A stretch of DNA of 64,000 nucleotides from Isoetes taiwanensis (Eukaryota; Streptophyta; Lycopodiopsida; Isoetales; Isoetaceae). The notes under the pieces were generated by a model. That model ran no database searches. It was given only the letters and a program-made list of their open reading frames with translations, and had not been told where the DNA came from. Location of the stretch: NCBI GenBank assembly GCA_021234155.1, contig JAJEKV010000060.1:4076451-4140450 (forward strand), in the 5' to 3' direction. Below, piece after piece: positions 17,428 through 61,750 of this stretch. The stretch's first letter is position 1; each line of letters opens with the position of its first letter. Both the position numbers and the translations under genes were made by a program.

Positions 17428-18623
17428 GGTCTGGTCAGAAAACTGAATCTGAGTTTTTTCTTAAGTACAAAATAGCCTATCCATCTTAGAATGGTCTTTT
17501 CTTTAAGTGATTTATTTCTAAAGTGCAGTTATGATTGATACTTGTGTTTTGAATGATTTTGTTTTGAACAGTCAGTCTTTTTCACGTAACTCACTTAGTC
17601 TACGGGCAAAAGATCTACATTAGGCAAACGGTTGATAACCGAAAAGCCTAAGGTACCTTTTGGCCCTTGAATTTTTACCCAGACTATGGCTAATGATGTA
17701 TTGGTTGGCTGCAGGTACGGGCTCCTTTTCCTAATGTAATCCTTCTGTCCAATAAGTCTTAGGTGAGCTTGGAAAAGAAGAAAGAAAGATGAGATGCACA
17801 TTTGCTCTTAAATGTTATGCTAAGATATTTGAGTACTTGATCCATTTTATTACTTTAGCAAATGATTTTTTGCAAGCATACAGGCTAAAAGGTGGATGTT
17901 ATTTGATGTGCCTTCTTCTGGCCATATACTCATGTGGAACAACCTAGCTTAGAAGTCATATTTTTTAAGGTTGTTATATGAACCTCGAAATTGAGTACTT
18001 TAGACTCTTACGCTTCGTAGTATAAAAAAAGTATAGTTTTATGCACTAAGTTTGCTACGGGATATGTAAAACCCATCTCTTTGATGTAATAAAAAAATAT
18101 AGAAATATGTTGAAAACATGCTCTGCTTTAAAAGGATTATATGCTTTTCAAATAGAACTTGCTGCTGGTTTCATCGTGGCAGGACCTGTTGTAGGCTTGA
18201 ACTATACATGCATCCAACTACAAATGGGAACTTCAATAATTGTAACTAGTCTTGTGGACTCAAATAAGGACGTCCCTCTTTAAGTGTTAGGTTTTGCCTT
18301 AGAAAATATCTGACTACAATTTATGATGATTTGTAAGCTCATTGGAAGAAAACTCTTCTGCATCTTCCATGTAAACTTATTTGCTACAAAATTAGATGTG
18401 CAAGCAAAGTGTTCTAAATGCGTGTCAAACTTGCTAGATAAATTTTCATAAAACAAGTGCGCAAAATGTTTAAAAGTTTTTAGAAAAGTTGAAAGCTAAG
18501 ATAAGTGATATAAACAAAGCAGATAATAAGCATAAGCTAATATACATCTCAGATTACTATTTTCATATCTACAGGTATTTGTGTCATTCCTCGTGATCAG
18601 GAATTTTGAATCTCTCAAGATAT
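17428..18623. repeat. Array unit 1: K/L spacer
   Basis: The first spacer of the tandem array. It extends further left (from GGTCTGGTCAG) than the later copies, which begin at TGTGTTTTGAATGATTTTG after a BiP fragment. Its version of the 62-codon ORF (about 18117-18285) is interrupted because the TATGTACCACC stretch is shortened to TATACATG. Confidence 0.8.
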
Positions 18624-20592
18624 TTACAGCTCAGAGTGATCTTCATCCTCTTCCTCTGAGGCAGCAACACCAGTCTTTTGATAAACCTTAGTTAATATCG
18701 GATTGCAAACATCCTCGATCTCCTTCAGCTTCTCTTCGAAATCCTCCCCCTCAGCACTTTGGTTATCGTCCAACCACTCCACAATTTCCTTCAATTCAGC
18801 TTCAATCTTTTCTTTGTCATCAGAATCTAGCTTATCCGCTAGCTTGTCCTTGTCACCAATTGAACTCTTCATGTTGTACACATATGTCTCCAATCTATTC
18901 CTGGCATCAATCTTTTCCTTCACCTTCTTATCTTGCTCTGCATATTCCTCAGCCTCCTTGATCATTCTATCAACCTCATCTGAAGATAAACGATCTTTGT
19001 CGTGATAATGATGATCTTCTACGCCTTATTGGTTAGCCTTATCCTGCCTTCACTTTTAGAATTCCATCATCATCTACTTCAAATGTAACTTCAATCAGGG
19101 GAATACCTCTTGGGCTGGGGCAATACCACTCAAATCAAATTTTCCAAGTTCAGCAATCTTTTGTCAAGCTTCTTTCTCCTTCAAAGACACGAGCAGAACC
19201 ACGGTTGTTTGCTTATCACGATAGGTGCTAAAATTTGGGATTTTTAGTTGGAATTGTAGTACCCACAGGAATGAGCTTTGTCATCACTCCACCAGCGGTT
19301 TCAATGCCAAGGGTCAAAGGAGTGGCATCAAGGATGAGTGCATCTTTAGTCTCTTTGCTTGCCCTTCCCCACTTAGAATGCCTCCTTGAGCAGTGCACCA
19401 TAGGCTCTGACCTCATCGGGATTGACTCCCTTGCTAGGCTCCTTGCCTTCAAAGTAGTCCTTCAACAATTCTTTGTACCTTTGGGATCTGAGTACTTCCT
19501 CCAACAAGAACGATTTCATCAATCTGACTTCTTAAGGCCCGCATCATCATCCATGGCCTTCCTAACGGGGCCTAATGTCTTCTTGAACAAGTCATTGTTA
19601 AGCTCCTCAAACCTAAAGCTCACGGTAAGTGGTTGAGGAGAAATCAACACCATCAAAAAGACTCTCAACCTCAATTCTAACTTGGTCTTTGTTTCTTGAG
19701 TGCCCTCTTTGCACCTTTCTGCCTCATGACGGAGTTTTCCAATAGCCACCCTTATCCTTGCTAATGTCCTTGTTGTTCTTCTTCTTGATGAGTTTAATAA
19801 AGTGCTCCATAATTACGTGGTCAAAATCCTCTCCTCCAAGATGAGTATCACCACTTGTGGCTAAAACTTCAAATACTCCATTATCAATTGTTAAGATCTT
19901 TGACATCAAAGGTACCACCACCAAGGTCAAACACAAGTATGTTCTTCTCGTTTCCCTTCTCATTAAGTCCATAAGCCAATCTTTGCTGCGGTTGGCTCAT
20001 TGAATCTGAGCCACGTTAAGTCCGGCAATGATACCGGCATCTTTTTGTGGCTGTCTCGTGCATCATTGAAATAAAATTTGGGGCGGTGATAACGACATTT
20101 TTACGACCTTTCCTAAGAATGCCTCTGCGGTTTCCTTCATTTTTATCAAAATCATGGCTAATCTCCTCTGGGCTGAAAAGCTTAACCGCCATCCTTGATC
20201 TTAACTTGTATATAAGGTTTCCCATCTTTGTTGATGATCTTGTAGGGCAATAGTTTCATATCATTTTGGACTTCTTTGTCGTCAAACTTCCTTCCAATCA
20301 AACGTTTAGGGTCAAAAATGGTCCTTTCGGGGTTAGAAGCAGCTTGGTTCTTGGCTGCCTCTCCAATAAGTCTTTCAGAATCTGTGAAGGCTACCCATGA
20401 AGGTGTGATTCGATTTCCCTGGTCATTGGCTATGATTTCTACATGCCCATCTTTGTTATAAACCCCACACAAGAATATGTTGTTCGAGATCAATACCAAT
20501 TACTGTATCTAATTTGGGAGCTTCTTCTGCGCCTGCTGCTACAGATACAACCCAAATTGTAAGAAAAATAAGCATAGACCTCCCCTCGACAT
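18624..20592 (-). pseudogene. BiP (ER luminal HSP70) copy 3, apparently frameshifted
   Basis: Full-length and intronless, from the ATG at 20592 to the stop at 18624. The product family is the ER chaperone that binds unfolded proteins and uses ATP. Readable pieces include an N-terminal ATPase stretch ([37 protein letters not shown]), [20 protein letters not shown]-like sequence, substrate-binding pieces ([20 protein letters not shown]) and an intact 113-codon lid ending [10 protein letters not shown]. The signal peptide is frameshifted (TTGGCTTTTC reads TTATTTTTC). The centre, 19000-20200, carries many small indels. Most coincide with CAG/CTG sites that are intact in other copies, for example GCTGCTGCAG reading CTTTGCTGCGG near 19981. 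Whether these are mutations or consensus errors is unresolved. Confidence 0.85.
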
Positions 20593-20665
20593 TCTCTATT
20601 GCCTCTGCTTCTCTCAACACTCTCTTCTGCTTCTGCTTCTGCTTCTCACCGCTCTGCTTCTTTTA
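20593..20665 (-). promoter_or_regulatory. BiP leader with (GCAGAA)-type repeat
   Basis: Immediately upstream of the BiP start, the minus strand carries purine-rich GCAGAAGCAGAAGCAGAAGA and AGAAGCAGAGGCAATAGAG, probably the 5' untranslated leader. The same sequence precedes copies 4 and 5 (38460-38530 and 50178-50250) without change. I saw no TATA box placed convincingly and no ER-stress element (CCAAT-N9/10-CCACG). Confidence 0.4.
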
Positions 20666-20958
20666 AACAAGCAAGGAAAAGGGCAAAGGAAAAAAGAAAC
20701 ATAAAATGGAAAAGGCAAAAAAAAAAGGCAAACATAAAGATACCTATTTTTTTCTTCTTGATGAGTTCTTATTAAAGGCAGTTCGACCTAATTCTTTGCT
20801 GGCCGATCTGGTGGTGCCTTGGCCGATCTGGTGGTGGGGAGGCACCTTGTCAGAAAAGATTGGTTAAATGCTGCTTCCCGTGTACTTATGGCCCAGGAAG
20901 GTAAGAATGCTTTGAGAAATGAAAACGAACTCAGTCTACAGTTTTGTGCCTTTTAACT

Positions 20959-21112
20959 TCTTGCAAACGAAGGCTTTGAGGCAATGCAAGCAACTATGGA
21001 CACATGCATGAAGCAGGAAAATTACTTGAGATTGCACCATGCCCAACTTATGAAGAAGCAGTGGCAGCATTGTTTAGTAGATGAAAAACTTATGGGGTGT
21101 CAGAACAGATTG
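20959..21112 (+). other. Exon-like open stretch, helical, unidentified (copy 1)
   Basis: An open frame reads NEGFEAMQATMDTCMKQENY, LRLHHAQLMKKQWQHCLVDE and KLMGCQ, a glutamine- and lysine-rich helical or coiled-coil composition. It is conserved without indels at about 38820-38972 and 50538-50690. An in-frame stop lies just upstream, so if it is an exon its acceptor must be close to 20970. I cannot name the family. Confidence 0.3.
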
Positions 21113-21449
21113 GTTAAATGCTGCTTCCCATGTACTTATGGCAAGTATTTTTGTAAATAAATAGAATAGAGGGGCTAAGAATACTTGCATCTGGGTAAAG
21201 GGAAAAAGGCTGTAAAAACCCAAGCCAGTAAGCTTGCAAGGTCCAGCAGTAAAGTTCAATGATTGCCATGTGACTGTGATGTCTTTCCACACATGCAATT
21301 TGGGTGGATCTTCTAATCCAGAAATAAGGTGAGTCTTCAGTCTAGATATATTACTCATGTAGTGTTGGATATGTTACTTAGCTGGTACAAAAGGCATTTT
21401 TATTTTAGAACTTATTAAGAAACATGATGATAGTGCGTTTTTGTTTTAG

Positions 21450-21574
21450 GATTTGCTTAGTGGCCAGTCCATTATGAATATTGGTGATTTGGGTGCGACT
21501 TCAAGTACCAGCAAAGAGCGAATTTCAAGACCATATATTAGCCGCTGGTTTGTGGTTGGACAAGAGCCTCAAAG
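21450..21574 (+). other. Putative exon of unidentified gene (copy 1)
   Basis: A 125-nt open stretch is bounded by a pyrimidine-rich TTTTTGTTTTAG acceptor and an AAAG/GTATGA donor. It encodes DLLSGQSIMNIGDLGATSST followed by SKERISRPYISRWFVVGQEP. The frame and both splice sites are preserved in the copies at 39311-39435 and 51030-51154. It may belong with the upstream helical stretch on the same strand. No family is recognised. Confidence 0.35.
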
Positions 21575-22358
21575 GTATGACATTTTGGGGTTTTATACAT
21601 ATCCTAGTAACGTTGCTACTGTTAAGAAAAATTAGTAATTCCTATTGGACAAATCTATTGCTTTAGAACAGGGCTAGATAATTGTTCTATGTTCTGGTTG
21701 CATTTACAGAGCATAAGGAACATGAGAAAACTGCATGAGTCCGAGATATGAAGTTTTGTTGGATAAAAAAGTCTTCATATTTGGCACTGCATGAAGCTGA
21801 CACAGAATAGAGGCTTCATGATTGATAATGCAAATGGCTTACAACACCCTTGGATAATGCACCTTGTGCATGCTCTCTTGCTTAAGATGACAATCTAGAA
21901 GAAAAATAGTATCATCATTAAAACATTAACAATCTCTATCTAGGTCCAAAAGTTCCACGAGCCTTTATGAAAGACCGAGGTGGCTTTTCAGAGACTAGAT
22001 TTAATGGCAGTGCATTTAAATTGATCTTTATTGCAGGTTTATGCTTTTGAATAAATTTGTGTTTGTGGTAAATTAGTAATTGTTTCTTACCCTTCTAGAT
22101 CTGGAAGCCTTTTGTAGTTGTATAAGTCATGATTATGAGAAGCCACTAGAGTTGCATTGTAACACAATATTCATGGGAAAGGAAAGGAATTTCTGACTGT
22201 TAAAATTTTCTCTCTCTACAGAATGCTTTGCATGTTCTAATGTTGATTTGTTGAAGTTGCAAACGTAGATATAGAGTGCATTCTTATTATGTAGTAGCAT
22301 GTTTATTTGATATATTTTGTTATTTGATTTTAAAAATGGCAGTTTTGAAGCATTTAAC

Positions 22359-23149
22359 TTTTCCCTGTACTTTCGTTGTGGGCTCTTGAACTTCAAAAGA
22401 TGCTATAGTAGAAAAGGAAGTTGATGCATAAGGCCCAAAGAAGGTGTGGAATTTTGGGCAATGAATGCTTGGCATCGATGGTTTCTTGAGATTTCTGCAA
22501 CTTTGACAAGGGGCAAAGGGAAAAGTTCTGACCAGGAAGTGTATCTGCACATCACATTTGTGTTCAGAGCACAAAGAACAATAGCAGAAAATTGCACATG
22601 TTAATTAAAGAGACAGTTAACCAGGAAGAAGTGATGGTATGTGCGGATATTGACAAGGTTCTGCTTCATGATTTTTTACATGGGAAATGAACAACTTACA
22701 CCAGAATCCACTTTCCATTGAGCAGTTGCAGTATATCTGTAGGAGCCGGGGTAGGGTTCTTAGCTTCCAGCTCATTTATCAGTTCTATAACTTCTGCACG
22801 GACCTCACTGCTAGTAACAAGGCCGTGCTCAGTACCAAAAGCAGAATCAATCAATCCCTTCTTAAGCCCTAATATTGTATTATCTTCTGCAGGTGTTTCC
22901 ACAGTTGTAACTACATCATGGCTGGATGATTGTTTGTGCTTGGCTCTATGGCTCTCATTTTCCTGACCATTATTTTTGTCTGGCAAAGCTGAAGCCACCA
23001 GACTTCTCTAACCAGGAGTATATAGAGAGGTAGAAACAAATGGAGATTTTTGGAATGGAACTTTACATGCCTTCCCTGGGGAAAGAGGCAATTTATGGTT
23101 TATAAATTAGCAAATGGGGCTTCAATACTGCATCAGAGATTATCGCCAT
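22359..23149 (-). pseudogene. Fibrillin (PAP) 5' exons, copy 1
   Basis: Plastid-lipid-associated proteins bind lipids in plastoglobules and thylakoids. Exon 1 (23149-22700) encodes a transit-peptide-like start and then the PAP domain opening [31 protein letters not shown] and LLNGKWILV, ending at a GTAAGT donor. Exon 2 (22544-about 22359) continues in phase with [10 protein letters not shown]-like sequence, then LVKVAEIS and an [13 protein letters not shown] strand. This copy has stops in the transit peptide (CTAATTTATAAACC replaces the CTTATAAGTCGC version), a 2-bp CT insertion near 23007, and frame loss in exon 2. Later exons are not visible. Confidence 0.8.
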
Positions 23150-25070
23150 AATAAATCTGGTCTGATCAACCAAGCCCTTGAATGCAGATGAAGAAAGTTG
23201 CCAGATCCGTGAGAGAAGTATATCATGTTGAATTCATTTTCACTGTTAAAATATTATTCTTTTCAATTCCATGATCCATCTCATGTGATAATATACGGCA
23301 ACAGAGAGAGAATTCAAATGCAACAACTCGACTTATAAAATTCACCATGAAAATTTAAATTTTAGTATGTACAACTTGGAGGCTGTCACATGTTAATCGT
23401 TCATTATATCAAGAAACTTACTCGTGAACATCATTTCCTCTTTACCATAAGTATTGTTGCCGACGAAATAATTAGAAGGAATAGCCACAAGAAGGGCTAT
23501 GAATATTCCACTACTGGATCACGAACATGTTTTGTATGTAAAGACAAATTGCAAATATCGTTTTATCTTTTTCAATAGATCTCACTAATAGCAAAGACTA
23601 AATGGAAATTTCATATAGATAACTAGAAACACAACAAGCATTGAAGCTTGATATACAACATTGGGATGTTTATGTCCAAGAACACTAACATGATCTCTTG
23701 TACTCAACCTATAAAAAGTCAAAGGTAATAGCAAAAACAACTTAACCCAACCAAACACTATTCCGCAAATCCTCACAAGTAGACCCACAACCATGTCCAC
23801 TGGAAAAAGAATAGTTACTTTGAACGTGTGGCCAGCAATGCCGGGCAATTCTTGAGAGCGTTTGGAATGGGTTTAGGGTATTAGACTTTGTAGCTACATT
23901 AGAATTTATAGAATCTATGTAGGTGAAATGGGCAGGAAGGCATAATGCATGAGTATAGTTGAATAGAAATAGAAAATGTACATCCCTATGAAGGATGAGC
24001 GCAAACCTTGTTTTTAAGTGTAAACATGCTATGAACTAATCTTATACAAAACATGTACGCCTCCCAAAGAAATGATCTTTCAAAGCAACAAAGCTAATGA
24101 AACAGTGGCAAACGTTGATACATGTGAGAGAGATTCATCTTATGTCTATTTGTTGTTAAACGCGAATCTCTAGAAACGTGTGCCCGACAATGCCATGCAT
24201 TAGTCATGTACGTGTGGAATAGGTAGATGTAATGGAATATGTAGAAGACTTGTAAAATATACTCATGATATATAGATGTAATGGAGTACCAACTGTGAAG
24301 GATTTAAGGTTTAGGGACACCAGGAATTAGCCCTAACACATTGAATGGGAGAAGTAATGGAAAGCATAAGATTATACTACCATTCTACTTGCATTGTTGG
24401 GGTGCCTTAATAAAATCATGCATAGTGCTACGAAAAGATTAGTTGTCGCATTCTGCTTGATGATTTGCACCATTTCAATACAGTTCAATTTAATTGGTTT
24501 CATATGCAAATAAACTTACAGAAACGTGATGGTTGCACAACGCCTTTGCATTAGTTGTGGGCACTTATATTGGCCGTCCATTGAATTACAAATAGTTTTT
24601 GACCGTAGACATTTTAGAGAAGGCCATCGCCATAGCCATCGGTGTACGTGGTCGGGCCGGGGTTCAAGCTTCAGATAGCGGGGCTGCAAATGTGGTCGTA
24701 TCCAACGTTTGGTGCTTGATTTTTTTGCTGCAAAAGCCTTACTTATTTGTTTGACTCTGTATTGTAGTGTTCCGGCACAGTTAAGTTCGCCTAATTGCAT
24801 AAATATCAAATTATTCTCTTCTTATTAGGTTTAAAACTTCAATTTGGGTTTACAACTTTCATTATGTATGAAACATCCTCTTCTCATTAGGTTTATATCT
24901 TCAAATTCGGTTTACAACCTTGATTATGTATCTTTCAACTTTTTGCTATTCTAGATTTTATGCCTCAAAAGCTCTAAAAGAATAAGTAGCAGAACGAGTT
25001 TACTGGAAGTCTAGAAAAACATGTGCAGTATATGCGCTTAATAAATGCTATTGAAGATTTCTTAACCAAA

Positions 25071-27042
25071 TGATACCACGGATTGGGAATTTGCAAAAAT
25101 ATCTTTAACTCTAGACATAGTACATTTTCTTGACTAAGCTTTAACCAACAGCATCAAATGTCAATTGTAGACCGTAGAAAATAGAATAGACTAGAAAATG
25201 TAAATATCAGAAGTAGCCGTACGTATCAATTTATTCTTTAAGGCTTAATGCTCACAATCTACTTGAGCAAGCATCAAACGTGTTCCTTATTGAGAGAAAA
25301 CCTTGGTGAAACAACCTGTACCTGTGCTTCCTGCTCAAGCATGTTCCTATAGCAAAGTGCTTCCTGCTCAAGCATGCTCCTATAGCAAAATATTTAGAGA
25401 CCTTTCCTATGCAAGAAGGGAAGAAAAGGGATTAAAAGTCTAAATCATGATCAAGCAACAACAATTATGCACTATAACTGGAGCATTTACAAGTAAACGA
25501 TTTGAAGTGTCCCATATCTATGATGTGGCAGTCCCTGAATTCGGATAAAATTTTGACGGTCTAACAAATGTGATATGTGGCAGTTCTAGGAAAAAGTAGG
25601 CATCAAGAGGCTATGCTAGGGTTTACGGACCATTAAAAATATCAAAGGGTTATCATCATGCTAGTTAATTTCATCTCTGATATACCATAAGCCATGGTCA
25701 TTTTCTATAGTTTTTCAAAAGTTCTATTTGGAAATATGCACTTTGTTGCAACGTGTACCCCACAACCACATCAAAATCAGCAAATAATTAAAAAAAAAAA
25801 ACCTCTAGAATCGCCATGTTGTTGGCATGCAGGTTCTCTTCAGTTGCATCAGCTCAGCAGTATTGGTGTTCTTTCTGATCACTTGGCGATTAATGTCGGT
25901 GTTCTTTCTCTTGTGACACTTTTTCTGGCAGTATTTGCTAAAAAAGGGTATGCTGATTTTGCAGGAAAGATGGGAAAATTGATGGTGTATATTGCAACAT
26001 TGATGGTTGTAGCTGTGGTGGAGATGGGAGCAAGCCAAAGGTAGACTGCGAAAAATCTGAGGCAAAGCTGGCGCCCTGCGCAGGAGCTATGATAGGGCCA
26101 AATCCACTAAGCCCAACACGACCTCCGATCCACCACGCCCCATGAAGTGTGTGCCTGCAAGCTCATGGCCAACGCCACCACCCTTCGCAGTTTCAACCCT
26201 GCTGGTGCCAAAGCCATGCCTCTCAAATGCAACATCTCCTTGCTTGCTGCTCCTCCTTCCAAACGCAAATATTTTTCTCCCTTCTAGCTCTCGACTAGGC
26301 ATCTTATTCTTTGCTTCAGATTGCCTCCCTGCTTTGCATTTCACAGCAACATTTTTTTCAAGAGCGCAAGGACAAATGGAGAAGCCGGAATAGTGTAGCC
26401 GGAACAGAGTAAGCGGGCAAAAATATCAAGGCTTTAGACGCATCGTGGCTGCTAAAACATTCTTATATAACAGGGGTTGTTAAGGAAACCAGTAAATGAA
26501 TCGTTAAAAGAGAAGGCCGCCGCGATAAATTTCTTGTAGATATAATAAAGAGTTATAAATGTAATTTGTGCATAGATGTAACGGAGTTTCAAGTGTGGAA
26601 GGTGCATGGAATGGGTAGGAAATAATGGGATGCATGGAGCGAAAGACATATAGGGATGGCTTGCACGCGTGGATGCCTGAGATGGCTTAAGTTGGGATGT
26701 CCTTTGATTCCTTGTATTTGAATTTTCAAATCCCTAACTTCTCATTGATAAAACAAAATCTTGAAGATAAATGCATTCTTCATGATCAATTGTATGAAGG
26801 AAATTTTATATTTGGGCTTCATAATTGTAATATTAGTCCAACACAATGATGGCTTGGAAGCCAAAGCCAATATTTCTAAGAGCAAACAATAGATTACACT
26901 TTTTACAGGCTGCTACAAACATGTCTGGTATTGCCTACTATGCTTGATCTCTTAACATTAATAAAAGGTGCACTTGAAATCAATTTTCCATGGTCTTTGC
27001 CTTCAATCGAAAATTGTCGAAAATTGCCATTGCAAACATGCT
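25071..27042. repeat. Array unit 1: block R
   Basis: Begins at TGATACCACGGATTGGG and is homologous to 31342-33260, 43067-45007 and 54828-56764, and to the inverted arm near the window end. This copy alone has a 33-bp tandem duplication (25324-25356 and 25357-25389, GTGCTTCCTGCTCAAGCATG...). Contains the 40-codon ORF listed separately. Confidence 0.85.
26165..26287 (+). CDS. 40-codon ORF resembling a chloroplast transit peptide
   Basis: The ATG opens MANATTLRSFNPAGAKAMPL and then KCNISLLAAPPSKRKYFSPF before TAG. It is rich in Ala, Ser, Thr and Lys with no acidic residues, as in plastid-targeting N-termini. Related starts occur at 32406 (+), 44132 (+), 55887 (+) and 63788 (-), some with small indels. 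It may be the first exon of a lost plastid protein gene. No mature domain follows, so the assignment is tentative. Confidence 0.3.
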   Translation: MANATTLRSFNPAGAKAMPLKCNISLLAAPPSKRKYFSPF

Positions 27043-27373: not shown

Positions 27374-27522
27374 TTTAACAAACCAAGGGCCTGAATGTAA
27401 TGAATTGTATTTATTTTTAAAAAAATTGGGTCTTTGTTAAAACAATTTCATTTACAAGAGTGGTATTGTCCACAATGAGATGAGTACAGACATGACTTCA
27501 ATCTTCAAAAGCATATGCTCCT

Positions 27523-46818: not shown

Positions 46819-47059
46819 GTCTTTGAAGGAGAAAGAAGCTTGACAAAAGATTGTTGGGAACTTGGAAAATTTGATTTGAGTGGTATTGCCCCAGCTCAAG
46901 AGGTATTCCCCAGATTGAACTTACTTTTGAAGTAGATGCGTATGGAATACTAAAAGTGAGGCAGAGGATAAGGCGACCAATAAGGTAGATAAGATCATCA
47001 ATATCGCTGATCTAAGATCGCTTATCTTCGATGAGGTTGATAGAATGATCAAGGAGGCT
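46819..47059 (+). pseudogene. BiP internal fragment in reverse orientation (copy 2)
   Basis: Same boundaries and the same one-base loss as 35080-35317. The acceptor-like TTTTCAGGTC reads TTTTCGTGTC here, and GTTGACGAAGATCGTTTATC reads GCTGATCTAAGATCGCTTATC, so it is the most altered of the three fragments. Confidence 0.8.
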
Positions 47060-48190
47060 TGTGTTTTGAATGATTTTGTTTTGAACAAATGGTTTTTTTC
47101 ACGTAACTCACTTAGTCTACGGGCAAAAGATCTACATTAGGCAAACGGTTGATAACCGAAAAGCCTAAGGTACCTTTTTGGCCCTTGAATTTTACCCGCA
47201 CTATGGCTAATGATGTATTGGTTGGTCAGCAGTAATGCGTTCCTTTTCCTAATGTAATCCTTCCGTCCAATAAGTCTTAGGTGAGCTTGGAAAAGAAGAA
47301 AGAAAGATGAGATGCACATTTGCTCTTAAATGTTATGCTAAGATATTTGAGTACTTGATCCATTTTATTACTTTAGCAAATGATTTTTGCAAGCATACAA
47401 AGCAAAAGGTGAATGTATCCAAAACCTATGGATGTTATTTGATGTGCCTTCTTCCGCCATATACCATAACCTAGCTTAGTAGTCATATTTTTTTTAAGAT
47501 TGTTATATGAACCTCTCGAAATTGAGTACTTTAGACCCTTACGCTTCAGTAGTATAAAAAAAAGTACGCTTTTATGCACTAAGTTTGCTACGGATATCTT
47601 ATTTCAAATCGAACTTCCTTATGTAAAACCCATCTCTTTGATGTAATAAAAAATATAGAAATATGTTGAAAACATGCTCCTTTGCTTTAAAAAAGGATTA
47701 TATGCTTTTCAAATAGAACTTGTCACTGGTTTCATCGTATAGACCTCGGTTGTAGGCTTGAACTATGTACCACCTACATGCATCCAACTACAAATGGGAA
47801 CTTCAATAATTGTAACTAGTCTTGTGGACTCAAATAAGGACGCCCCTCTTTTAAGTGTTAGGTTTTGCCTTAGAAAATATACAAATACAATTTATGATGA
47901 TTTGTAAGCTCATTGGAAGAGAAACTCTTCCTGCATCTTCCATGTCGCTTATTTGCTACAAAATTAGATGTGCAAGCAAAGTGTTCTAAATGCGTGTCAA
48001 ACTTGCTAGATAAATTTTCATAAAACAAGTGCGCAAAATGTTTAAAAGTTTTTAGAAAAGTTGAAAGCTAAGATAAGTGATATAAACAAAGCAGATAATA
48101 AGCATAAGCTAATATACATCTCGACACTATTTTCATATCTACAGTATTTGTGTCATTCCTCGTGATCGAATTTTGAATGTCTCAAGATAT
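47060..48190. repeat. Array unit 3: K/L spacer
   Basis: Homologous to the other spacers. The 62-codon ORF (about 47668-47852) is broken by CAG/CTG-centred changes (CTTGCTGCTGGTTTC reads CTTGTCACTGGTTTC; GGCAGGACCTG reads ATAGACCTCG). Confidence 0.8.
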
Positions 48191-50177
<1,987 letters not shown>

Positions 50178-51029
50178 TCTCTATTGCCTCTGCTTCTCTC
50201 AACACTCTCTTCTGCTTCTGCTTCTGCTTCTCACCGCTCTGCTTCTTTTAAACAAGCAAGGAAAAGGGCAAAGGAAAAGAAACGCAAAATGGAAAAGGCA
50301 AAAAAAAAGGCAAGCATAAAGATACCTATTTTTTTCTTCTTGATGAGTTCTTATTAAAGGCAGTTCGACCTAATTCTTTGCTGGCCGATCTGGTGGTGCC
50401 TTGGCCGATCTGGTGGTGGGGAGGCACCTTGTCAGAAAGATTGGTTAAATGCTGCTTCCCGTGTACTTATGGCCCAGGAAGGTAAGAATGCTTTGAGAAA
50501 TGAAAACGAACTCAGTCTACAGTTTTGTGCCTTTTAACTTCTTGCAAACGAAGGCTTTGAGGCAATGCAAGCAACTATGGACACATGCATGAAGCAGGAA
50601 AATTACTTGAGATTGCACCATGCCCAACTTATGAAGAAGCAGTGGCAGCATTGTTTAGTAGATGAAAAACTTATGGGGTGTCAGAACAGATTGGTTAAAT
50701 GCTGCTTCCCATGTACTTATGGCAAGTATTTTTGTAAATAAATAGAATAGAGGGGCTAAGAATACTTGCATCTGGGTAAAGGGAAAAAGGCTGTAAAACC
50801 CAAGCCAGTAAGCTTGCAAGGTCCAGCAGTAAAGTTCAATGATTGCCATGTGACTGTGATGTCTTTCCACACATGCAATTTGGGTGGATCTTCTAATCCA
50901 GAAATAAGGTGAGTCTTCAGTCTAGATATATTACTCATGTAGTGTTGGATATGTTACTTAGCTGGTACAAAAGGCATTTTATTTTAGAACTTATTAAGAA
51001 ACATGATGATAGTGCTTTTTTTGTTTTAG

Positions 51030-51154
51030 GATTTGCTTAGTGGCCAGTCCATTATGAATATTGGTGATTTGGGTGCGACTTCAAGTACCAGCAAAGAGCG
51101 AATTTCAAGACCATATATTAGCCGCTGGTTTGTGGTTGGACAAGAGCCTCAAAG
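51030..51154 (+). other. Putative exon of unidentified gene (copy 3)
   Basis: Open stretch and splice-like borders identical to 21450-21574, with an extra T in the pyrimidine tract. Confidence 0.35.
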
Positions 51155-51945
51155 GTATGACATTTTGGGGTTTTATACATATCCTAGTAACGCTGCTACT
51201 GTTAAGAAAAATTAGTAATTCCTATTGGACAAATCTATTGCTTTAGAACAGGGCTAGATAATTGTTCTATGTTCTGGTTGCATTTACAGAGCATAAGGAA
51301 CATGAGAAAACTGCATGAGTCCTAGATATGAAGTTTTGTTGGATAAAAAAAGTCTTCATATTTGGCACTGCATGAAGCTAATCTAGTGATTTTTCATGAC
51401 AAAGAATAGAGGCTTCATGATTGATAATGCAAATGGCTTACAACACCCTTTGGATAATGCACCTTGTGCATGCTCTCTTGCTTAAGATGACAATCTAGAA
51501 GAAAAATAGTATCATCATTAAAACATTAACAATCTCTATCTAGGTCCAAAAGTTCACGAGCCTTTTATGAAAGACTGAGGTGGCTTTTCAGAGACTAGAT
51601 TTAATGGCAGTGCATTTAAATTGATCTTTATTGCAGGTTTATGCTTTTGAATAAATTTGTGTTTGTGGTAAATTAGGAATTGTTTCTTACCCTTCTAGAT
51701 CTGGAAGCCTTTTGTAGTTGTATAAGTCATGATTATGAGAAGCCACTAGAGTTGCATTGTAACACAATATTCATGGGAAGGGAAAGGAATTTCTGACTGT
51801 TAAAATTTTCTCTCTACAGAATGCTTTGCATGTTCTAATGTTGATTTGTTGAAGTTGCAAACGAGATATAGAGTGCATTCTTATTATGTAGTAGCATGTT
51901 TATTTGATATATTTTGTTATTTGATTTTAAAATGGCAGTTTTGAA

Positions 51946-52734
51946 GCATTTAACTTTTCCCTGTACTCGTTGTGGGCTGCGAACTTCAAAAGGTGCTATA
52001 GTAGAAAAGGAAGTTGATGCATAAGGCCCAAAGAAGGTGACGGAATTTTGGGCACTGAATGCTTCGATGGTTTGCGAGATTTCTGCAACTTTGACAAGGG
52101 GCAAAGGGAAAAGTTCTGACCAGGAAGTGTATCTGCACATCACATTTGTGTTCAGAGCACAAAGAACAATAGCAGAAAATTGCACATGTTAATTAAAGAG
52201 ACAGTTAACCAGGAAGAAGTGATGGTATGTGCGGATATTGACAAGGTTCTGCTTCATGATTTTTTACATGGGAAATGAACAACTTACACCAGAATCCACT
52301 TTCCATTGAGCAGTTGCAGTGTATCTGTAGGAGCCGGGGTAGGGTTCTTAGCTTCCAGCTCATTTATCAGTTCTATAACTTCTGCACGGACCTCACTGCT
52401 AGCAACAAGGCCGCTTTTCAGTACCAAAAGCAGAATCAATCAATCCCTTCTTAAGCCCTAATATTGTATTATCTTCTGCAGGTGTTTCCACAGTTGTAAC
52501 TACATCATGGCTGGATGATTGTTCGTGCTTGGCTCTATGGCTCTCATTTTCCTGACCATTATTTTTGTCTGGCAAAGCTGAAGCCACCAGACTTCTAACC
52601 AGGAGTATATAGAGAGGTAGAAACAAATGGAGATTTTTGAATGGAACTTTACATGCCTTCCCCGGGGAAAGAGGCAATTTGTCGCTTATAAGTCGCAAAT
52701 GGGGCTTCAATACTGCATCAGAGATTATCGCCAT
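51946..52734 (-). pseudogene. Fibrillin (PAP) 5' exons, copy 3 (best preserved exon 1)
   Basis: Exon 1 starts at the ATG at 52734 and stays open through the transit peptide (LISDKLPLSPGKACKVPF), VASALPDKNNGQENESHRAK and [20 protein letters not shown]. It lacks the CT insertion of copies 1 and 2. The frame is lost only at GCCGCTTTTCAG, where copy 1 reads GCCGTGCTCAG. The exon ends at the GTAAGT donor at 52287, and exon 2 begins at 52132 in matching phase ([12 protein letters not shown]). Only two exons of the PAP domain are present. A functional protein would need the remaining exons, which are not in the unit. Confidence 0.8.
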
Positions 52735-54827
52735 AATAAATCTGGTCTGATCAACCAAGCCCTTGAATGCAGATGAAGAAAGTTGCCAGATCCGTGAGAG
52801 AAGTATATCATGTTGAATTCATTTTTACTGTTAAAATATTATTCTTTTCAATTCCATGATCCATCTCATGTGATAATGTACGGCAACAGAAAGAGAATTC
52901 AAATGCAACAACTCGACTTATAAAATTCACCATGAAAATTTATATTAGCAAAGAATTTTAGTATGTACAACTTGAGGTCAGTCACATGTTAATCGTTCAT
53001 TATATCAAGAAACTTACTCGTGAACATCATTTCCTCTTTACCATAAGTATTGTTGCCGACGAAATAATTAGAAGGAATAGCCACAAGAAGGGCTATGAAT
53101 ATTCCACTACTGGATCGCGAACAGGTTTTGTATGTAAAGACAAATTGCAAATATCGTTTTATTTTTTCCAATAGATCTCACTAATAGCAAAGACTAAATG
53201 GAAATTTCATATAGAAACACAACAAGCATTGAAGCTTGATATACAACATTGTGTTTCACTTGGATGTTTATGTCCAAGAACACTAACATGATCTCTTGTA
53301 CTCAACCTACAAAAAGTCAAAGGTAATAGCAAAAACAACTTAACCCAACCAAACATTATTGTGCAAATCCTCACAAGTAGACCCAGACAACCATGTCCAC
53401 TGGAAAAAGAATAGTTACTAGAACGTGTGGCTAGCGATGCCTGCAATTCTTGAGAGCCGCTTGGAATGGGTTTAGGGTATTAGACTTTGTAGCTACATTA
53501 GAATTTATAGAATCTATGTAGGTGAAATGGGCAGGAAGGCATAATGCATGAGTATAGTTGAATAGAAATAGAAAATGTACATCCCTATGAAGGATGAGCG
53601 CAAACCTTGTTTTTAAGTGTAAACATGCTATGAACTAATTTTATACAAAACATGTACGCCTCCCAAAGAAATGATCTTTCAAAGCAACAAAGCTAATGAA
53701 ACAAAGGGCAAACGTTGATACATGTGAGAGAGATTCATCTTATGTCTATTTGTTGTTAAACGCGAATCTCTAGAAACGCAGTGCCCGCAAATGCCGCATT
53801 AGTCATGTAATGCGGTGGAATAGGTAGATGTAATGGAATATGTAGAAAACTTGTAAAATGTACTCATGATATATAGATGTAATGGAGTACCAACCGGTGA
53901 AGGATTTAAGGTTTAGGGACGCCGAAATTAGCCCTAACACATCGAATGGATAGAAGTAATGGAAAGCATATGTTGCAAATATGTTGGCGCATAAGGTTTT
54001 TGAGGAATACACAATTGCAATTTTGTTACCCTCGTGTTTTTGCAAGCTAAGATTATACTACCATTCTACTTGCATTGTTGGGGTGCCTTAATAAAATCAT
54101 GCATAGTGCTACTTAAAAGATTAGTTGTCGATTCTCGCTTGATGATTTGCACCATTTCAATACAGCTCAATTTAATTGGTTTCATATGCAAATAAACTTA
54201 CAGAAACGGATGGTTGCACAACGCCTTTGCATTAGTTGTGGGCACACCTAAAATGGAATTTATCCAACATATATAATTATTATTGGGTCGATTCTTTGGC
54301 ATATTCTTCGACGCCGAGGCACTTATCTTGGCCGCCCATTGAATTACAAATAATTTTTTACCGTAGACATTTTAGAGAAGGCCACCGCCATAGCCATCGC
54401 GGTAATGCGGGTCGGGCGGGGTTCAAGCTTCGATAGCGGGGCTGCAAATGTGGTCGTATCCAACGCTTGGTGCTTGATTTTTTTTCGCAAAAAGCCTTAC
54501 TTATTTGTTTGACTCATTGTTGTAGTGTTCCTAAGACGCTTAAGTTCGCCTAATTGCATAAATATCAAATTATTCTCTTCTTATTAGGTTTAAAACTTCA
54601 ATTTGGGTTTACAACTTTCATTATGTATGAAACATCCCTTCTCATTAGGTTTATATCTTCAAATTCGGTTTTACAACCTTGATTATGTATCTTTCAACTT
54701 TTTGCTATTCTAGATTTTATGCCTCAAAAGCTCTAAAAGAATAAGTAGCGAACGAGTTTATCGGAAGTCCGAAAACATGTGTGCAAGATATGCGCTTAAT
54801 AAATGCTATTGAAGATTTCTTAACCAA

Positions 54828-56764
54828 ATGATACCAATGGATTGGGAATTTGCAAAAATATCTTTAACTCTAGACATAGTACATTTTCTTGACTAAGCTT
54901 TAACCAACAGATCAAGTGTCAATTGTAGACCGTAGAAAATAGAATAGAATAAACTAGAAAATGTAAATATCGGCAGTAGCCGCATCGACGCCTTATTCTT
55001 TAAGGCTCAATGCTCACAATCCGCTTGAGCAAGCATAAACGTGTTCCTTGTTGAGAGAAAACCTTGGTGAAACAACCTCACACTGCTTCCCGCCAAGCAT
55101 GTTCCTATAGCAAAATATTTAGAGACCTTTCCTATGCAAGAAGGGAAGAAAAGGGATTAAAAGTCTAAATCATGATTAAGCAACAACAATTATGCACTAT
55201 AACTGGAGCATTTACAAGTAAACGATTTGAAGTGTCCCATATCTATGATGTGGCAGTCCCTGAATTCGGATAAAATTTTGACGGTCTAACAAATGTGATA
55301 TGTGGCAGTTCTAGGATAAAGTAGGCATCAAGAGGCTATGCTAGGGTTTACGGACCATTAAAAATATCAAAGGGTTATCATCATGCTAGTTAATTTCATC
55401 TCTGATACACCATAAGCCATGGCTGCACTACAGGTTTTTCAAAAGTTCTATTTGGAAATATGCACTTTGTTGCAACTATGTACTTACAACCACATCAAAA
55501 TCAGCAAATAATTAAAAAAAAAAAAACCTCTAGAATCGCCATGTTGTTGGCATGCAGGTTCTCTTCTGTTGCATCAGCTCAGCAGTATTGGTGTTCTTTC
55601 TGATCACTTCAGCAGTGTCGGTGTTCTTTCTCTTGTGACACTTTTTCTGGCAGTATTTGCTAAAAAAGGGTATGCTGATTTTGCAGGAAAGATGGGAAAA
55701 TTGATGGTGTATATTGCAGCATTGATGGTTGTAGCTGTGGTGGAGATGGGAGCAAGCCAAAGGTAGACTGCGAAAAATCTGAGGCAAAGCTGGCGCCCTG
55801 CACAGGAGCTATGATAGGGCCAAATCCACTAAGCCCAACACGGCCTCCGATCCACCACGCCCCAGGAAGTGTGCGCCTGCAAGCTCATGGCCAACGCCAC
55901 CACCCTTTCAAGTAGCTTCAACCTCGCCGTGCCAAAGCCATGCCTCTCAAATGCAACATCTCCTTGCCTCACGCTCCTCCTTCCAAACGCAAATATTTTT
56001 CTCCCTTCTAGCTCTCGACTAGGCATCTTATTCTTTGCTTCAGATTGCCTCCCTGCTTTGCATTTCACAGCAACATTTTTTTCAAGAGCGCAAGGACAAA
56101 TGGAGAAGCCGGAATAGTGTAGCCGGAACAGAGTAAGCGGGCAAAAATATCAAGGCTTTAGACGCATCGTGGCTGCTAAAACATTCTTATATAACAGGGG
56201 TTGTTAAGGAAACTTGTAAATGAATCGTTAAAAGAGAAGGCCGCCGCGATAAATTTCTTGTAGATATAATAAAGAGTTATAAATGTAATTTGTGCATAGA
56301 TGTAACGGAGTTTCAAGTGTGGAAGGTGGATGGAATGGGTAGGAAATAATGGGATGCATGGAGCGAAAGACATATAGGGATGGCTTGCACGCGTGGATGC
56401 CTGAGATGGCTTAAGTTGGGATGTCCTTTGATTCCTTGTGTTTGAATTTTCAAATCCCTAACTTCTCATTGATAAAACAAAATCTTGAAGATAAATGGAT
56501 TCTTCATGATCAATTGTATGAAGGAAATTTTATATTTGGGCTTCATAATTGTAATATTCGTCCAACACAATGATGGCTTGGAAGCCAAAGCCAATATTTC
56601 TAAGAGCAAACAATAGATTGCACTTTTTACAGGCTGCTACAAACATGTCTGGTATTGCCTACTATGCTTGATCTCTTAACATTAATAAAAGGTGCACTTG
56701 AAATCAATTTTCCATGGTCTTTGCCTTCAATCGAAAATTGTCGAAAATTGCCATTGCAAACATG
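54828..56764. repeat. Array unit 3: block R
   Basis: Homologous to the other R blocks; the segment from 55667 onward is also present as the inverted arm at the window end. A transit-peptide-like start lies at 55887, frameshifted after MANATT. Confidence 0.85.
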
Positions 56765-58616
56765 CTTTTTTATATATATACTGCGCCATGATGAAACCCT
56801 CATTCTAAGATTGACATTCAAGCAAAGAGTGCAATAATTACAACTTATACATCATTCTATAATGGTCCTACATATATGGTTGCTTATTGAAATCCCTTTC
56901 CAGCTTAGAAATGCATTGATAGCTGGCTAAGAAATCCCATTGTGCTAAACCTCCAATAACTAATGGAAGCTCGATTTAACGGTTTTTAATTCTTTAGATT
57001 TTCACTCTCAATACAAATTTTGTGCTGCCATAAGTTGTACAATGAAGATGTGCTTCATAACAAAATGGTCATATTGCGGCTTTGATGCAGTGATAAACGT
57101 CATACTTTTAAGAACTATAAAAAACAATTGTGATCTGAGAAGGATTGTTAATTTATAAGTTCTGCATAAAAAAACCTACAATAGCCAATACTACATTTCA
57201 AAAGAGAATCAAGTTAGAAAACCATTATAGCTATACAATCTACCCAAATCTAAATATATGCCATGGTCCTAACTTGAACACATGAATATCATTAGGTTAA
57301 ATACTATCACCCATATTGCCACCATGAGGAACAATGCTAGTAAGATATACCAACAATATGTATTCATAAAAAAATAAAAAATAAAAACTAGCAAAAAGGC
57401 GCAACAGTAGGCTTAGGCAGTATTAAGTTTGGATTCAATTTCTCATTAAGAAAGCATGTATCGGACAATCTATTTAAATTGGAAGGCTAGATTGAAATTG
57501 TGATTAAATAGATTAATTTCATTTTTGCGAATGAAGTAACTAATAATATTCTCTAAATGAAATATGAAAAACCCACGTTGCAAATGAGGCTTAGATTTAT
57601 AAATGCTTTAGCTTTTATGTTGTTAGATTTTGCTTCTTCTTTTAAGAAACCAAAGATTTGTTTGTTTTAGACGGATTAGCTTAACTAATTGTTATGGCTC
57701 CTAGTGGTGGATTTGCATTGTTGGATTATATTCCCTTTTTTTTTAATTGGTTTGCTTTTTGCTTATCATTGGTTATATGAAGGACTTGGATTTCGAAATG
57801 ATCATGAAATGGTTTATAGGTGGCAATGTCAAGGAGTTCTTTCTTGCTTGGATGTCTAAATCTTATGATGTTTAGATTTAGAATATTCCCCGTGACAGCC
57901 TTTATTGATATTTGGAGATGGCACTTTTGTGCTTGTTGGAAGTGCAAGGAGTTTGACAATAGGCAAGTGGCACAAGTAGCATTTTTGTGTTTTTTTTTTT
58001 ATGTCGACAAATTGGTGGCAGTTGGGCATGGTTTCTAACTACATGGCTATTTCTGTCCCTTGCACATATGAAGAAGTATTATGCAATGGAAAACTACTTT
58101 ACGTCTCTTTGCACATTTAACAACTCTAACGTGCCACAATGGAAGGTTTTTTAAGTATAACATAAAGAAATAATGAAGATTTTTAGGCGGTCTTCTCAGA
58201 GCTGTGATAGATCCAGATTGGAGAAAATGGCTTCCATCGTATAGGGCATTTACACGTTAGCAATTATTTAACATGTGAATTTGAGGTGTTCTTCTGGACC
58301 CTCGTGGTTTTTTTACTTTTGATCCCGTGTCTTCCCAAAATCCATCACCACCTTATTCTTTAATATATTTGTCATTTATCAATGGAAGGTACGATTCCTC
58401 AATTTGATGTAACAGGACTACTTCGTATAATTTTGTGTTGTCATCATGGCGGGCTCTTGTTTGAGAATGGCTTTACCTCTATTTATACCTTTATCACATA
58501 TAAGGAAGTGTCGAGCAATTAGTAGTGTGTCATTGCCCAACATTTTGGAGCTTTGTGATAAAGCAAGATTGAGCCTGATGAGCAAGAAGGTATTCTTTTT
58601 GCTAATCAATTTTCAG
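56765..58616. repeat. Array unit 3: block S
   Basis: Homologous to the other S blocks. Two private variants (GGCGCAACAGTAGG near 57398 and GCTCGATTTAACGG near 56970) recur, one base changed in the second, in the inverted arm at 61753-64000 and not in the other S copies. Confidence 0.85.
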
Positions 58617-58858
58617 GTCTTTGGAGGAGAAAGAAGCTTGACAAAAGATTGTTGGGAACTTGGAAAATTTGATTTGAGTGGTATTGCCCCAGCTCCAAGA
58701 GGTATTCCCCAGATTGAACTTACTTTTGAAGTAGATGCAGATGGAATACTAAAAGTGAGGCAGAGGATAAGGCGACCAATAAGGTAGATAAGATCATCAA
58801 TACTGTTGACGAAGATCGTTTATCTTCAGATGAGGTTGATAGAATGATCAAGGAGGCT
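58617..58858 (+). pseudogene. BiP internal fragment in reverse orientation (copy 3)
   Basis: The cleanest copy. It runs from [18 protein letters not shown] through [20 protein letters not shown] and GILKV, where a one-base loss shifts the frame, then in the other frame to [12 protein letters not shown]. The acceptor-like TTTTCAG is intact. It faces BiP copy 6, whose homologous segment is at about 60322-60567 on the minus strand, 1.46 kb away. Confidence 0.85.
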
Positions 58859-59994
58859 TGTGTTTTGAATGATTTTGTTTTGAACAGTCAGTCTTTTTCA
58901 CGTAACTCACTTAGTCTACGGGCAAAAGATCTACATTAGGCAAACGGTTGATAACCGAAAAGCCTAAGGTACCTTTTGGCCCTTGAATTTTTACCCAGAC
59001 TATGGCTAATGATGTATTGGTTGGCTGCAGGTACGTGCTCCTTTTCCTAATGTAATCCTTCTGTCCAATAAGTCTTAGGTGAGGTTGGAAAAGAAGAAAG
59101 AAAGATGAGATGCACATTTGCTCTTAAATGTTATGCTAAGATATTTGAGTACTTGATCCATTTTATTACTTTAGCAAATGATTTTTGCAAGCATACAGGC
59201 TAAAAGGTGAATGTATCTGAAACCTATGGATGTTATTTGATGTGCCTTCTTCTGGCCATATACTCATGTGGAACAACCTAGCTTAGGAGTCATATTTTTT
59301 AAGGTTGTTATATGAACCTCGAAATTGAGTACTTTAGACCCTTACGCTTCGTAGTATAAAAAAAGTACAGTTTTATGCACTAAGTTTGCTACGGGATATC
59401 TTATTTCAGTCGAACTTCCTTATGTAAAACCCATCTCTTTGATGTAATAAAAAAATATAGAAATATGTTGAAAACATGCTCCTTTGCTTTAAAAGGATTA
59501 TGTGCTTTTCAAATAGAACTTGCTGCTGGTTTCATCGTGGCAGGACCTGTTGTAGGCTTGAACTATGTACCACCTACATGCATCCAACTACAAATGGGAA
59601 CTTCAATAATTGTAACTAGTCTTGTGGACTCAAATAAGGACGTCCCTCTTTAAGTGTTAGGTTTTGCCTTAGAAAATATACAGCTACAATTTATGATGAT
59701 TTGTAAGCTCATTGGAAGAGAAACTCTTCCTGCATCTTCCATGTCGCTTATTTGCTACAAAATTAGATGTGCAAGCAAAGTGTTCTAAATGCGTGTCAAA
59801 CTTGCTAGATAAATTTTCATAAAACAAGTGCGCAAAATGTTTAAAAGTTTTTAGAAAAGTTGAAAGCTAAGATAAGTGATATAAACAAAGCAGATAATAA
59901 GCATAAGCTAATATACATCTCAGATTACTATTTTCATATCTACAGGTATTTGTGTCATTCCTCGTGATCAGGAATTTTGAATGTCTCAAGATAT
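58859..59994. repeat. Array unit 4: K/L spacer
   Basis: Homologous to the other spacers, with CAG/CTG sites intact (GAACAGTCAGTCTTTTTCAC). Contains the 62-codon ORF. Confidence 0.85.
59465..59653 (+). CDS. Recurrent 62-codon ORF (copy c)
   Basis: Full-length copy, one substitution from copy b (Y13C). Function unknown. Confidence 0.3.
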   Translation: MLKTCSFALKGLCAFQIELAAGFIVAGPVVGLNYVPPTCIQLQMGTSIIVTSLVDSNKDVPL

Positions 59995-61750
59995 TTACAG
60001 CTCAGAGTGATCTTCATCCTCTTCCTCTGAGGTAACAACACCAGTCTTTTGATAAACCTTGGTTATTATCGGATTGCAAACATCCTCAATCTCCTTCAGC
60101 TTCTCTTCGAAATCCTCCCCCTCAGCACTTTGGTTATCGTCCAACCACTCCACAATTTCCTTCAATTCAGCTTCAATCTTTTCTTTGTCATCAGAATCTA
60201 GCTTATCCGCTAGCTTGTCCTTGTCACCAATTGAACTCTTCATGTTGTACACATATGTCTCCAATCTATTCCTGGCATCAATCTTTTCCTTCACCTTCTT
60301 ATCTTGCTCTGCATATTCCTCAGCCTCCTTGATCATTCTATCAACCTCATCTGAAGATAAACGATCTTTGTCAGCAGTAATGATGATCTTCTCTGCCTTA
60401 TTGGTCGCCTTATCCTCTGCCTTCACTTTTAGAATTCCATCTGCATCTACTTCAAACGTAACTTCAATCTGGGGAATACCTCTTGGAGCTGGGGCAATAC
60501 CACTCAAATCAAATTTTCCAAGTTCCCGACAATCTTTTGTCAAGCTTCTTTCTCCTTCAAAGACCCGAATCGCATTACGGTTGTTTGCTTATCCCGATAG
60601 GTGCTAAAATTTGGGATTTTTTAGTTGGAATTGTAGTACCCCTGGGAATGAGCTTTGTCATCACTCCACCAACAGTTTCAATGCCAAGGGTCAAAGGAGT
60701 GGCATCAAGGATGAGTGCATCTTTAGTCTCTTTGCCGCCTTCCCCACTTAGAATGCCTCCTTGAACAATTGCACCATAGGCTCTGACCTCATCGTGGTTG
60801 ACTCCTTGCTAGGCTCCTTGCCTTCAAAGTAGTCCTTCAACAATTGCTTTGTACCTTTGGGATACGCAGTACTTCCTCCAACAAGAACGATTTCATCAAT
60901 GCGTGACTTCTTAAGGCCAAGATCATCCATGGCCTTCCTTAATACAGGGGCCTAATGTCTTCTTGAACAAGTCATTGTTAAGCTCCTCAAACCTCGCCTC
61001 GGTAAGTGGTTCGGAGAAATCAACACCATCAAAAAGACTCTCAACCTCAATTCTAACTTGGTGTCAAGTTATCGAAAGTGCCCTCTTTGCCTTTCTGCTT
61101 TCTCACGGAGTTTTCCAATAGCCCCGCTATCCTTGCTAATGTTCTTGTTGTACTTCTTCTTGATGAGTTTAATAAAGTGCTCCATAATTCGTGGTCAAAA
61201 TCCTCTCCTCCAAGATGAGTATCACCACTTGTGGCTAAAACTTCAAATACTCCATTATCAATTGTTAAGATGTCGACATCAAAGGTACCACCACCAAGGT
61301 CAAACACAAGTATGTTCTTCGTTTCCCTTCTCATTAAATCCATAAGCCAATCTTTGCTGCAGCTTGGCTCATTCGTATCTGTGAGCCACGTTAAGTCCAA
61401 AGAATGATACCAAAGATCTTTTGTGGCCCTGCTCACGTGCATCATTGAAATAAGCCGGGGCGGTGATAACAAAGATTTTTACGACCTTTCCTAAGAATGC
61501 CTCTGCAGCTTCCTTCATTTTTATCAAAATCATGGCGCTAATCTCCTCTGGGCTGAAAAGCTTAACTTCGCCATCCTTGATCTTAACTTGTATATAAGGT
61601 TTCCCATCTTTGTTGATGATCTTGTAGGGCAATAGTTTCATATCATTTTGGACTTCTTTGTCGTCAAACTTCCTTCCAATCAAACGTTTAGGGTCAAAAA
61701 TGGTCCTTTCGGGGTTAGAAGCAGCTTGGTTCTTGGCTGCCTCTCCAATA
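59995..61750 (-). pseudogene. BiP (ER luminal HSP70) copy 6, 5'-truncated at an inversion
   Basis: The 3' part is the best in the window: 182 codons are open (59995-60543), from the substrate-binding domain ([20 protein letters not shown]) through the lid ([20 protein letters not shown]) to [10 protein letters not shown]. Upstream the frame is lost in 60550-61490 by CAG/CTG-centred changes, then reopens ([17 protein letters not shown] to [18 protein letters not shown]). Homology ends at 61750, at CTCTCCAATA, in the [16 protein letters not shown] region. The first 80 or so residues, with the signal peptide and phosphate loop 1, are replaced by inverted S-block DNA, so this copy cannot encode a secreted, complete BiP. 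Confidence 0.9.

Follow-up and report, generated by a model that had tools for sequence, protein, structure and literature searches.

Copy differences within a tandem array of BiP-type HSP70 genes in Isoetes taiwanensis, analysed here in a window of 64,000 nucleotides (contig JAJEKV010000060.1, positions 4,076,451 to 4,140,450; C1068 in our numbering), are very probably for the most part systematic nanopore consensus errors at CAG and CTG trinucleotides (together CWG). The trigger would be 5-methylcytosine (5mC) in the CHG context, and the errors would have been left by polishing in multicopy DNA. The kind of error is already known. For Klebsiella, Wick et al. (2019; PMC6591954) reported that about 70% of the consensus errors made by the default Oxford Nanopore Technologies (ONT) basecallers of the time lay at the Dcm sites CCAGG/CCTGG (CCWGG), and that training the models on methylated DNA almost abolished such errors.

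Four families of blocks were aligned across the window, namely P, Q and R with five rows each and S with three, giving 18 copy rows. Each copy was compared with the majority of the other copies (two to four), or in some listings with their unanimous letter, and sites without a majority were excluded from the counts. The reference copies are themselves altered in places, above all in R, so that the rates there are lower bounds. When the 32 strand-symmetric triplets were ranked by altered sites over the average in the pooled block rows, CGC (4.5), CCG (4.0), CAG/CTG (3.7), CGA (3.1) and ACG (2.7) stood at the top and all remaining classes reached at most 1.73. CAG/CTG was altered at 150/725 sites, the highest rate for any triplet without CG. 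A preliminary description of this DNA had claimed that copy differences concentrate on CAG/CTG, and the tabulation over aligned copies bears this out, with two corrections: CG triplets stand as high, and block S lacks the excess. The ten strings that it quoted were all recovered, within 8 bases of the places given, and a search of the 1.66-Gb assembly with the altered string at 43811 gave a single exact match. The CG excess arises partly from ordinary deamination, the control genes being also high at CG (0.18-0.21 substitutions per base).

Compared with circular shifts, the CWG excess was significant (p <=0.01) in 12 of the 18 rows, including all rows of P and R (5/5 each), two of five in Q and none of three in S. 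Block S (4.2 kb, three copies) showed no CWG excess, with 7/103, 0/98 and 5/103 sites altered. Pairwise divergence was 2-21% within 4 bases of CG or CWG and 0.2-4% elsewhere; away from these contexts it was 0.3-0.7% in S, 0.2-1.7% in P and Q and 0.6-4.2% in R. As controls, three HSP70 genes from elsewhere in the genome than the array (91-96% alike) were used; they showed no CWG excess (0.039-0.048 versus 0.039-0.049 at other bases). At distances above 3 bases from any CG or CWG, substitutions numbered 62/2779 in altered segments and 41/11908 in clean ones, a 6.6-fold difference. They were dropped as a separate signal, since the 18 listed for the R copy at 47058 proved by eye, in this one copy, to be mostly offset alignments or multi-base spill-over.

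The array is composed of units of about 11.7 kb, positions 31339-49951 matching 43066-61751 at 95.0%. Further partial copies begin at 7290, and 61753-64000 holds a piece in inverted orientation. The block copies and units are as follows.

17541 to 20154, plus strand: R block copy, containing much of a BiP gene; CWG altered 9/33.
20130 to 24368, plus strand: S block copy, with the 5' end of BiP and the DNA upstream of it; CWG altered 7/103 (p 0.35, no excess).
25357 to 27042, plus strand: P block copy; CWG altered 8/37.
29511 to 31341, plus strand: Q block copy; CWG altered 0/16.
31339 to 43065, plus strand: array unit of about 11.73 kb; altered near 32.35, 35.3 and 36.4-36.6 kb; CWG in its S part 0/98.
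43066 to 54824, plus strand: array unit of about 11.76 kb; heavily altered at 43.3-49.7 kb, cleaner near 44.5-45.5 kb; S part 5/103.
54825 to 61751, plus strand: third array unit, partial; altered near 55.0-55.9 and 61.0-61.5 kb.
61753 to 64000, minus strand: inverted P and Q copy; CWG altered 11/22 in the P part and 1/8 in the Q part.

The most altered copy is that at 43.3-49.7 kb, where 21/40 CWG sites in P, 8/18 in Q and 30/40 in R are altered. The altered zones listed in the preliminary description are visible in a map of 500-base bins, except that 53.4-55.1 kb is covered only at its edges (2/3 and 3/9 altered; 53.97-55.08 lies outside the alignments). The map adds further altered zones near 7.3-9.3, 25.5-26.2, 35.0-35.3 and 62.9-64.0 kb.

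Edit forms were counted at sites with four settled bases on each side (375 in P, Q and R). The multi-base replacements CAGC>CAAAG, CAGT>CAAG, CAG>CG and CAG>CGT recur at CWG. As judged by eye, CAG followed by C tends to become CAAAG and CAG followed by T becomes CAAG or CAAAG, while CAGG and CAGA turn into CGTG, CGGG, CGTA or CGA. Loose classes divide the 118 altered CWG sites of P, Q and R into 49 of the group CG, CGG, CGT and CCG, 19 CAAG/CAAAG, 42 other, 5 deamination-type and 3 other single changes. The edits 'A deleted', 'AG>GT' and 'G[CT]>A(A)G' discriminate better: they account for 19/118 altered CWG sites in P, Q and R, 1/9 in S, 9/27 in a repeat carrying a 5.8S ribosomal RNA (rRNA) gene and 91/164 in 5S genes, and for 0/103 in the three control HSP70 genes, in which gene pairs were counted in both directions. 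A>G at CWG also occurs in the controls (8/103 altered sites), and therefore CAG>CGG is not specific; of the stereotyped replacements claimed earlier, it is the multi-base forms that discriminate, and they recur in rRNA genes. Deamination-type changes make up 5/118 altered CWG sites in P, Q and R, where C>T/G>A thus do not dominate, 0/9 in S, 2/27 in the 5.8S repeat, 3/164 in 5S and 10/103 in the controls. The cosine of whole edit spectra was tried as a discriminator and was indecisive (P, Q and R at 0.60 to the 5.8S repeat, 0.34 to 5S and 0.40 to the controls). The CAG>CAAAG replacement is not described among the titles and abstract openings of the literature matches listed, and we do not claim that it is unpublished.

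Genes for rRNA, whose sequence is known, carry the same changes. For 5S, the best-scoring copies from the search gave 77 complete units in 13 of 21 fetched stretches (L002 and L014-L020 were excluded and 2 units at locus ends dropped). Of the 77 units, 11 match the reference copy exactly, counting that copy itself. Across the four CWG sites of the gene, 14 units are clean at all, 18 altered at all, 20 altered at the last three and 25 otherwise; the mean altered fraction is 0.21 at CWG and 0.22 at CG, against 0.08 for the remaining bases and 0.05 for those lying more than 2 bases from either context. The site CCCAGTA is intact in 22 of the 77 units and reads CCCAAGA in 23 and CCCAAAGA in 20. 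TTCTGAT is intact in 30 and reads TTCGAT in 39, TGCAGCA is intact in 44 and reads TGCAAAGA in 6, and CGCTGGT is intact in 33 and reads CGCCGGT in 8. Clean and altered units alternate at a spacing of about 345 bases within one array. In its spacer, the 5S reference period disagrees at bases 220-260 with each of the 19 other units compared; hence no patch length is drawn beyond clean stretches of about 200 bases. In a tally by hand among 100 of 128 matches listed, 59 of the 85 tandem 5S copies carry the CAA(A)GA type, 20 CAGTAC and 6 another form, compared with none of CAA(A)GA in the 15 dispersed copies (Fisher p 2.5e-7). Among these 15 listed dispersed copies, of which one (on C930) hardly qualifies as 5S, three show G>A at that CAG, a change of the deamination type that suggests past methylation there.

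The 5.8S gene gives the same picture. Two adjoining copies on C964 score 151.4 bits (clean) and 103.7 bits (altered), the latter being changed at CAG/CTG sites including CTCAGCA>CTCAAAGA. They lie in a tandem repeat of about 4.39 kb (L032, 1-9901), and between adjoining units of this repeat CWG is the most altered triplet (27/78). The repeat was considered as 45S rDNA; this was rejected, as only 5.8S matches and no Rfam match to 18S or 26S was found in it at gathering scores, which makes 18S/26S unusable as a yardstick. For the same 5.8S stretch, 44 copies with exact flanks in the assembly were tallied by hand: 13 read CAGCA, 15 CAAAGA, 6 CAAGA, 4 CAACA and 6 other. Since same-context changes appear both in rRNA genes and in an unrelated array, the fault points to the reading and not to the DNA.

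The genes in the array are of the BiP type, with five copies in the window, all on the minus strand. A PF00012 match is found in two open reading frames of the window and in matches elsewhere in the genome, and HSP70 matches on the contig span C1068:3.97 to 4.41 Mb. The yardstick was an intact paralogue (L026, C1055:7230466) with an open frame of 665 aa, which we take, on its N-terminal leader, to be the endoplasmic reticulum (ER)-type protein, BiP. Amino acid identity of the five copies to it reaches 97% in clean stretches. Substitution rates against L026, at CWG and outside CG/CWG, are given with each copy.

8168 to 9829, minus strand: copy c7, 5' truncated; 0.211 versus 0.022.
18660 to 20595, minus strand: copy c18; 0.161 versus 0.024.
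36468 to 38462, minus strand: copy c36, the cleanest of the five; 0.080 versus 0.018.
48235 to 50180, minus strand: copy c48; 0.189 versus 0.023, with 34/58 CWG altered.
60040 to 61797, minus strand: copy c60, 5' truncated near the inverted join; 0.163 versus 0.022.

Frameshifting indels in the five copies fall at CWG in 84 cases, at CG in 35 and at other bases in 56 (n=175). CWG or CG contexts thus hold 119/175, compared with 25% expected (shares 0.174 CWG, 0.077 CG and 0.749 other). As most frame breaks coincide with artefact contexts, the copies are not callable as pseudogenes from this assembly. The view that much of the apparent BiP pseudogenisation is false is likely to be right, but not for all of it: the 56 indels off CWG/CG stand apart, and c7 and c60 are truncated, aligning to L026 only from base 315 and 248 on, respectively. 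Altered sites are also unevenly placed along the coding sequence (CDS). Its first 400 bases, covered by five of seven copies (the seven being the five in the window plus L029 and L030 outside it) and partly by one more, hold one altered CWG of 14-15, at the same site in c18, c36, c48, L029 and L030; L026 may be the odd one out there. Between CDS bases 400 and 1700, altered CWG sites number 29, 29, 10, 30 and 21 (each of 41) in the five window copies, 12/39 in L029 and 14/41 in L030. Altered CWG sites in the BiP copies run together, with neighbour agreement of 0.56-0.81 versus 0.50-0.62 expected.

Two minor features touch these genes. The CDS of c36 contains a perfect tandem duplication of 25 bases at 37963-38014, where the block alignments break, and the copy near 49.7 kb has a single unit; the duplication is possibly an unmerged gap-filling join. 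Three array units each contain a short piece of HSP70 (about residues 473-557 of L026) in the orientation opposite to that of the BiP genes (plus strand), at 35068-35317, 46807-47059 and 58605-58858.

The probable source of the assembly would fit such errors. The sequence searched (1,658,258,908 bases in 1110 contigs) appears to be the Isoetes taiwanensis v1 assembly, described as 1658.30 Mb in 204 scaffolds and 909 contigs, from native DNA prepared with a ligation kit, read on ONT R9.4.1 pores and called with Guppy 3.1 flip-flop, and built with miniasm, racon, pilon, Bionano and LR_Gapcloser (Wickell et al., 2021; PMC8566536). The main text of that paper contains 0 words beginning with 'methylat'. 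In the proposed sequence of events, native DNA would be read on R9.4.1 pores by a basecaller whose training had not covered methylcytosine at symmetric CHG sites. At methylated CAG/CTG it would write a wrong, context-bound string (CAGC>CAAAG; CAGT>CAAG or CAAAG; CAG>CG, CGT or CGG). Because the error would be the same from read to read, the long-read consensus (racon) would retain it. Illumina polishing (pilon) would then correct it where short reads can be placed and leave patches in multicopy DNA, which would include the BiP array, the 5S arrays and the 5.8S-bearing repeat. An altered patch would require both a methylated CWG and a failed short-read correction, and patchiness probably reflects methylation and polishing together. 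The multi-base forms are absent or weaker in the control HSP70 genes, the dispersed 5S copies listed and block S, where methylation and read placement are assumed. Consensus error at CWG, as proposed earlier, is thereby strongly supported, by the same multi-base forms at 5S and 5.8S and by the presumed R9.4.1/Guppy 3.1 source. 5mC in CHG is put forward as the presumed trigger.

The case resembles the Dcm errors in that a methylated C (presumed so here) is followed by W and then G, default models are used and the error outlasts the consensus; unlike them, it concerns plant CHG instead of bacterial Dcm methylation and a broader CWG motif (PMC6591954). Compared with that report, the replacement forms listed and the damage to multicopy genes of a reference assembly are particular to the present case. 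Ferguson et al. (2022; PMC9749173) likewise used native plant DNA and a general basecaller and named methylation as a likely cause of accuracy loss; unlike here, the term CHG is absent from its main text, and the passages considered give no motif-level error table.

Several observations weigh against explaining the differences by methylation-triggered consensus error. Homopolymers of at least 4 bases are altered at 24/301 in clean segments versus 7/75 in altered ones; this comparison has low power, but with rates this similar the altered zones do not look generally unpolished. The loose form classes fit 68/118 altered sites in P, Q and R but also 22/103 control sites, and 85/118 cannot be reduced to one named simple edit. 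Some of the 56 frameshifting indels off CWG/CG fall in a stretch, CDS 518-600, common to several copies. BiP copies outside the window are less biased (CWG 0.073 in L029 and 0.063 in L030, versus 0.016 and 0.020), with 22 frameshifts at CWG, 5 at CG and 20 elsewhere (n=47). Altered 5.8S forms also occur on contigs with only one or two pattern matches (C970, C1029, C1077 and C1081), and the CAAAGA copies, partly in arrays, could share descent.

A variant of the favoured explanation, not exclusive of it, holds that the artefact zones mark methylated DNA faithfully and that polishing is minor. It seems rather unlikely. In the copies seen, there is no CWG excess at the BiP 5' ends or in the S block with its fibrillin gene, as would be expected for unmethylated gene 5' ends, and homopolymer error does not differ between zones; the alternation of clean and altered 5S units at about 345 bases in one array speaks against it, as do the dispersed 5S copies listed, of which 3/15 have deamination-type changes at the same CAG and none the artefact form. 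The sharp contrast between adjoining 5S units, together with the absence of the form from the dispersed copies listed, indicates that polishing seems to shape the pattern too. The claim that the errors mark methylated DNA is supported only in part.

Nanopore error set by the CWG context without any need for methylation, with patches marking where pilon worked, is considered quite improbable. It would accommodate the sharp differences between adjoining 5S units (14/77 clean and 18/77 altered at all four CWG sites) and the confinement of the form to tandem copies (59/85 versus 0/15 dispersed among those listed). Such an error should also affect block S and CDS 0-400 of BiP, yet the three S copies show no excess, and they are as alike off CG/CWG (0.3-0.7%) as P and Q (0.2-1.7%). 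In bacteria, moreover, the CWG error tracks Dcm methylation and nearly vanishes with trained models (PMC6591954). Real mutation, in which the copies decay as methylated pseudogenes by C>T deamination at CG and CHG, is hardly credible as the main cause: CG triplets are enriched, the S copy at 20130 shows by eye many C>T/G>A changes and a few deamination-type changes occur at CWG (5/118), but CAAAG, CG and CGT alter the A or add bases, beyond what deamination does, and recur in rRNA genes, and the control HSP70 genes lack a CWG excess. The edit spectrum speaks against deamination as the main cause, which remains as a minor layer.

Under methylation-triggered consensus error left by polishing, the copies of tandem gene families, of 5S genes and of repeats bearing 5.8S contain frameshifts and divergence in this assembly that are not real. 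Counts of pseudogenes, estimates of gene-family age, primers and repeat consensus sequences based on such regions would be biased. With the table of replacements, other plant assemblies made from nanopore reads in those years could be screened easily, and the table might also serve as a rough proxy for CHG methylation. It is conceivable, although we hold this only tentatively, that the CWG errors left in the multicopy DNA of early plant assemblies from nanopore reads form a frozen, partial record of CHG methylation. If so, the passage from the clean BiP 5' end and S block to the altered middle and 3' part would be a methylation boundary readable from FASTA alone.

The genome contains a methylase exon of 90 aa that resembles chromomethylases, with 117 bits to the PDB entry 4fsx and two further chains, the next match (animal DNMT1 type) having 54. 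The PDB table names 4fsx DNA (cytosine-5)-methyltransferase 1; we take it to be the maize chromomethylase ZMET2. The loci L033 and L037 were rejected as chromomethylase candidates, being DRM2-like; L034 had nothing beyond a Pfam methylase match, and the L035 exon had no such match.

Further features concern the layout of the array. The inverted P/Q copy at 61753-64000 adjoins a truncated BiP copy and is either a real inversion or an assembly join. Pfam gave no match for one pair of frames in P and one frame in Q. Another gene lies in the clean S block, upstream of BiP.

40200 to 40725, minus strand: PAP/fibrillin-type gene in exon pieces, 40200-40475 above the Pfam cut-off and 40495-40725 just below it.

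The pieces of this gene have been duplicated jointly with BiP in the array unit.

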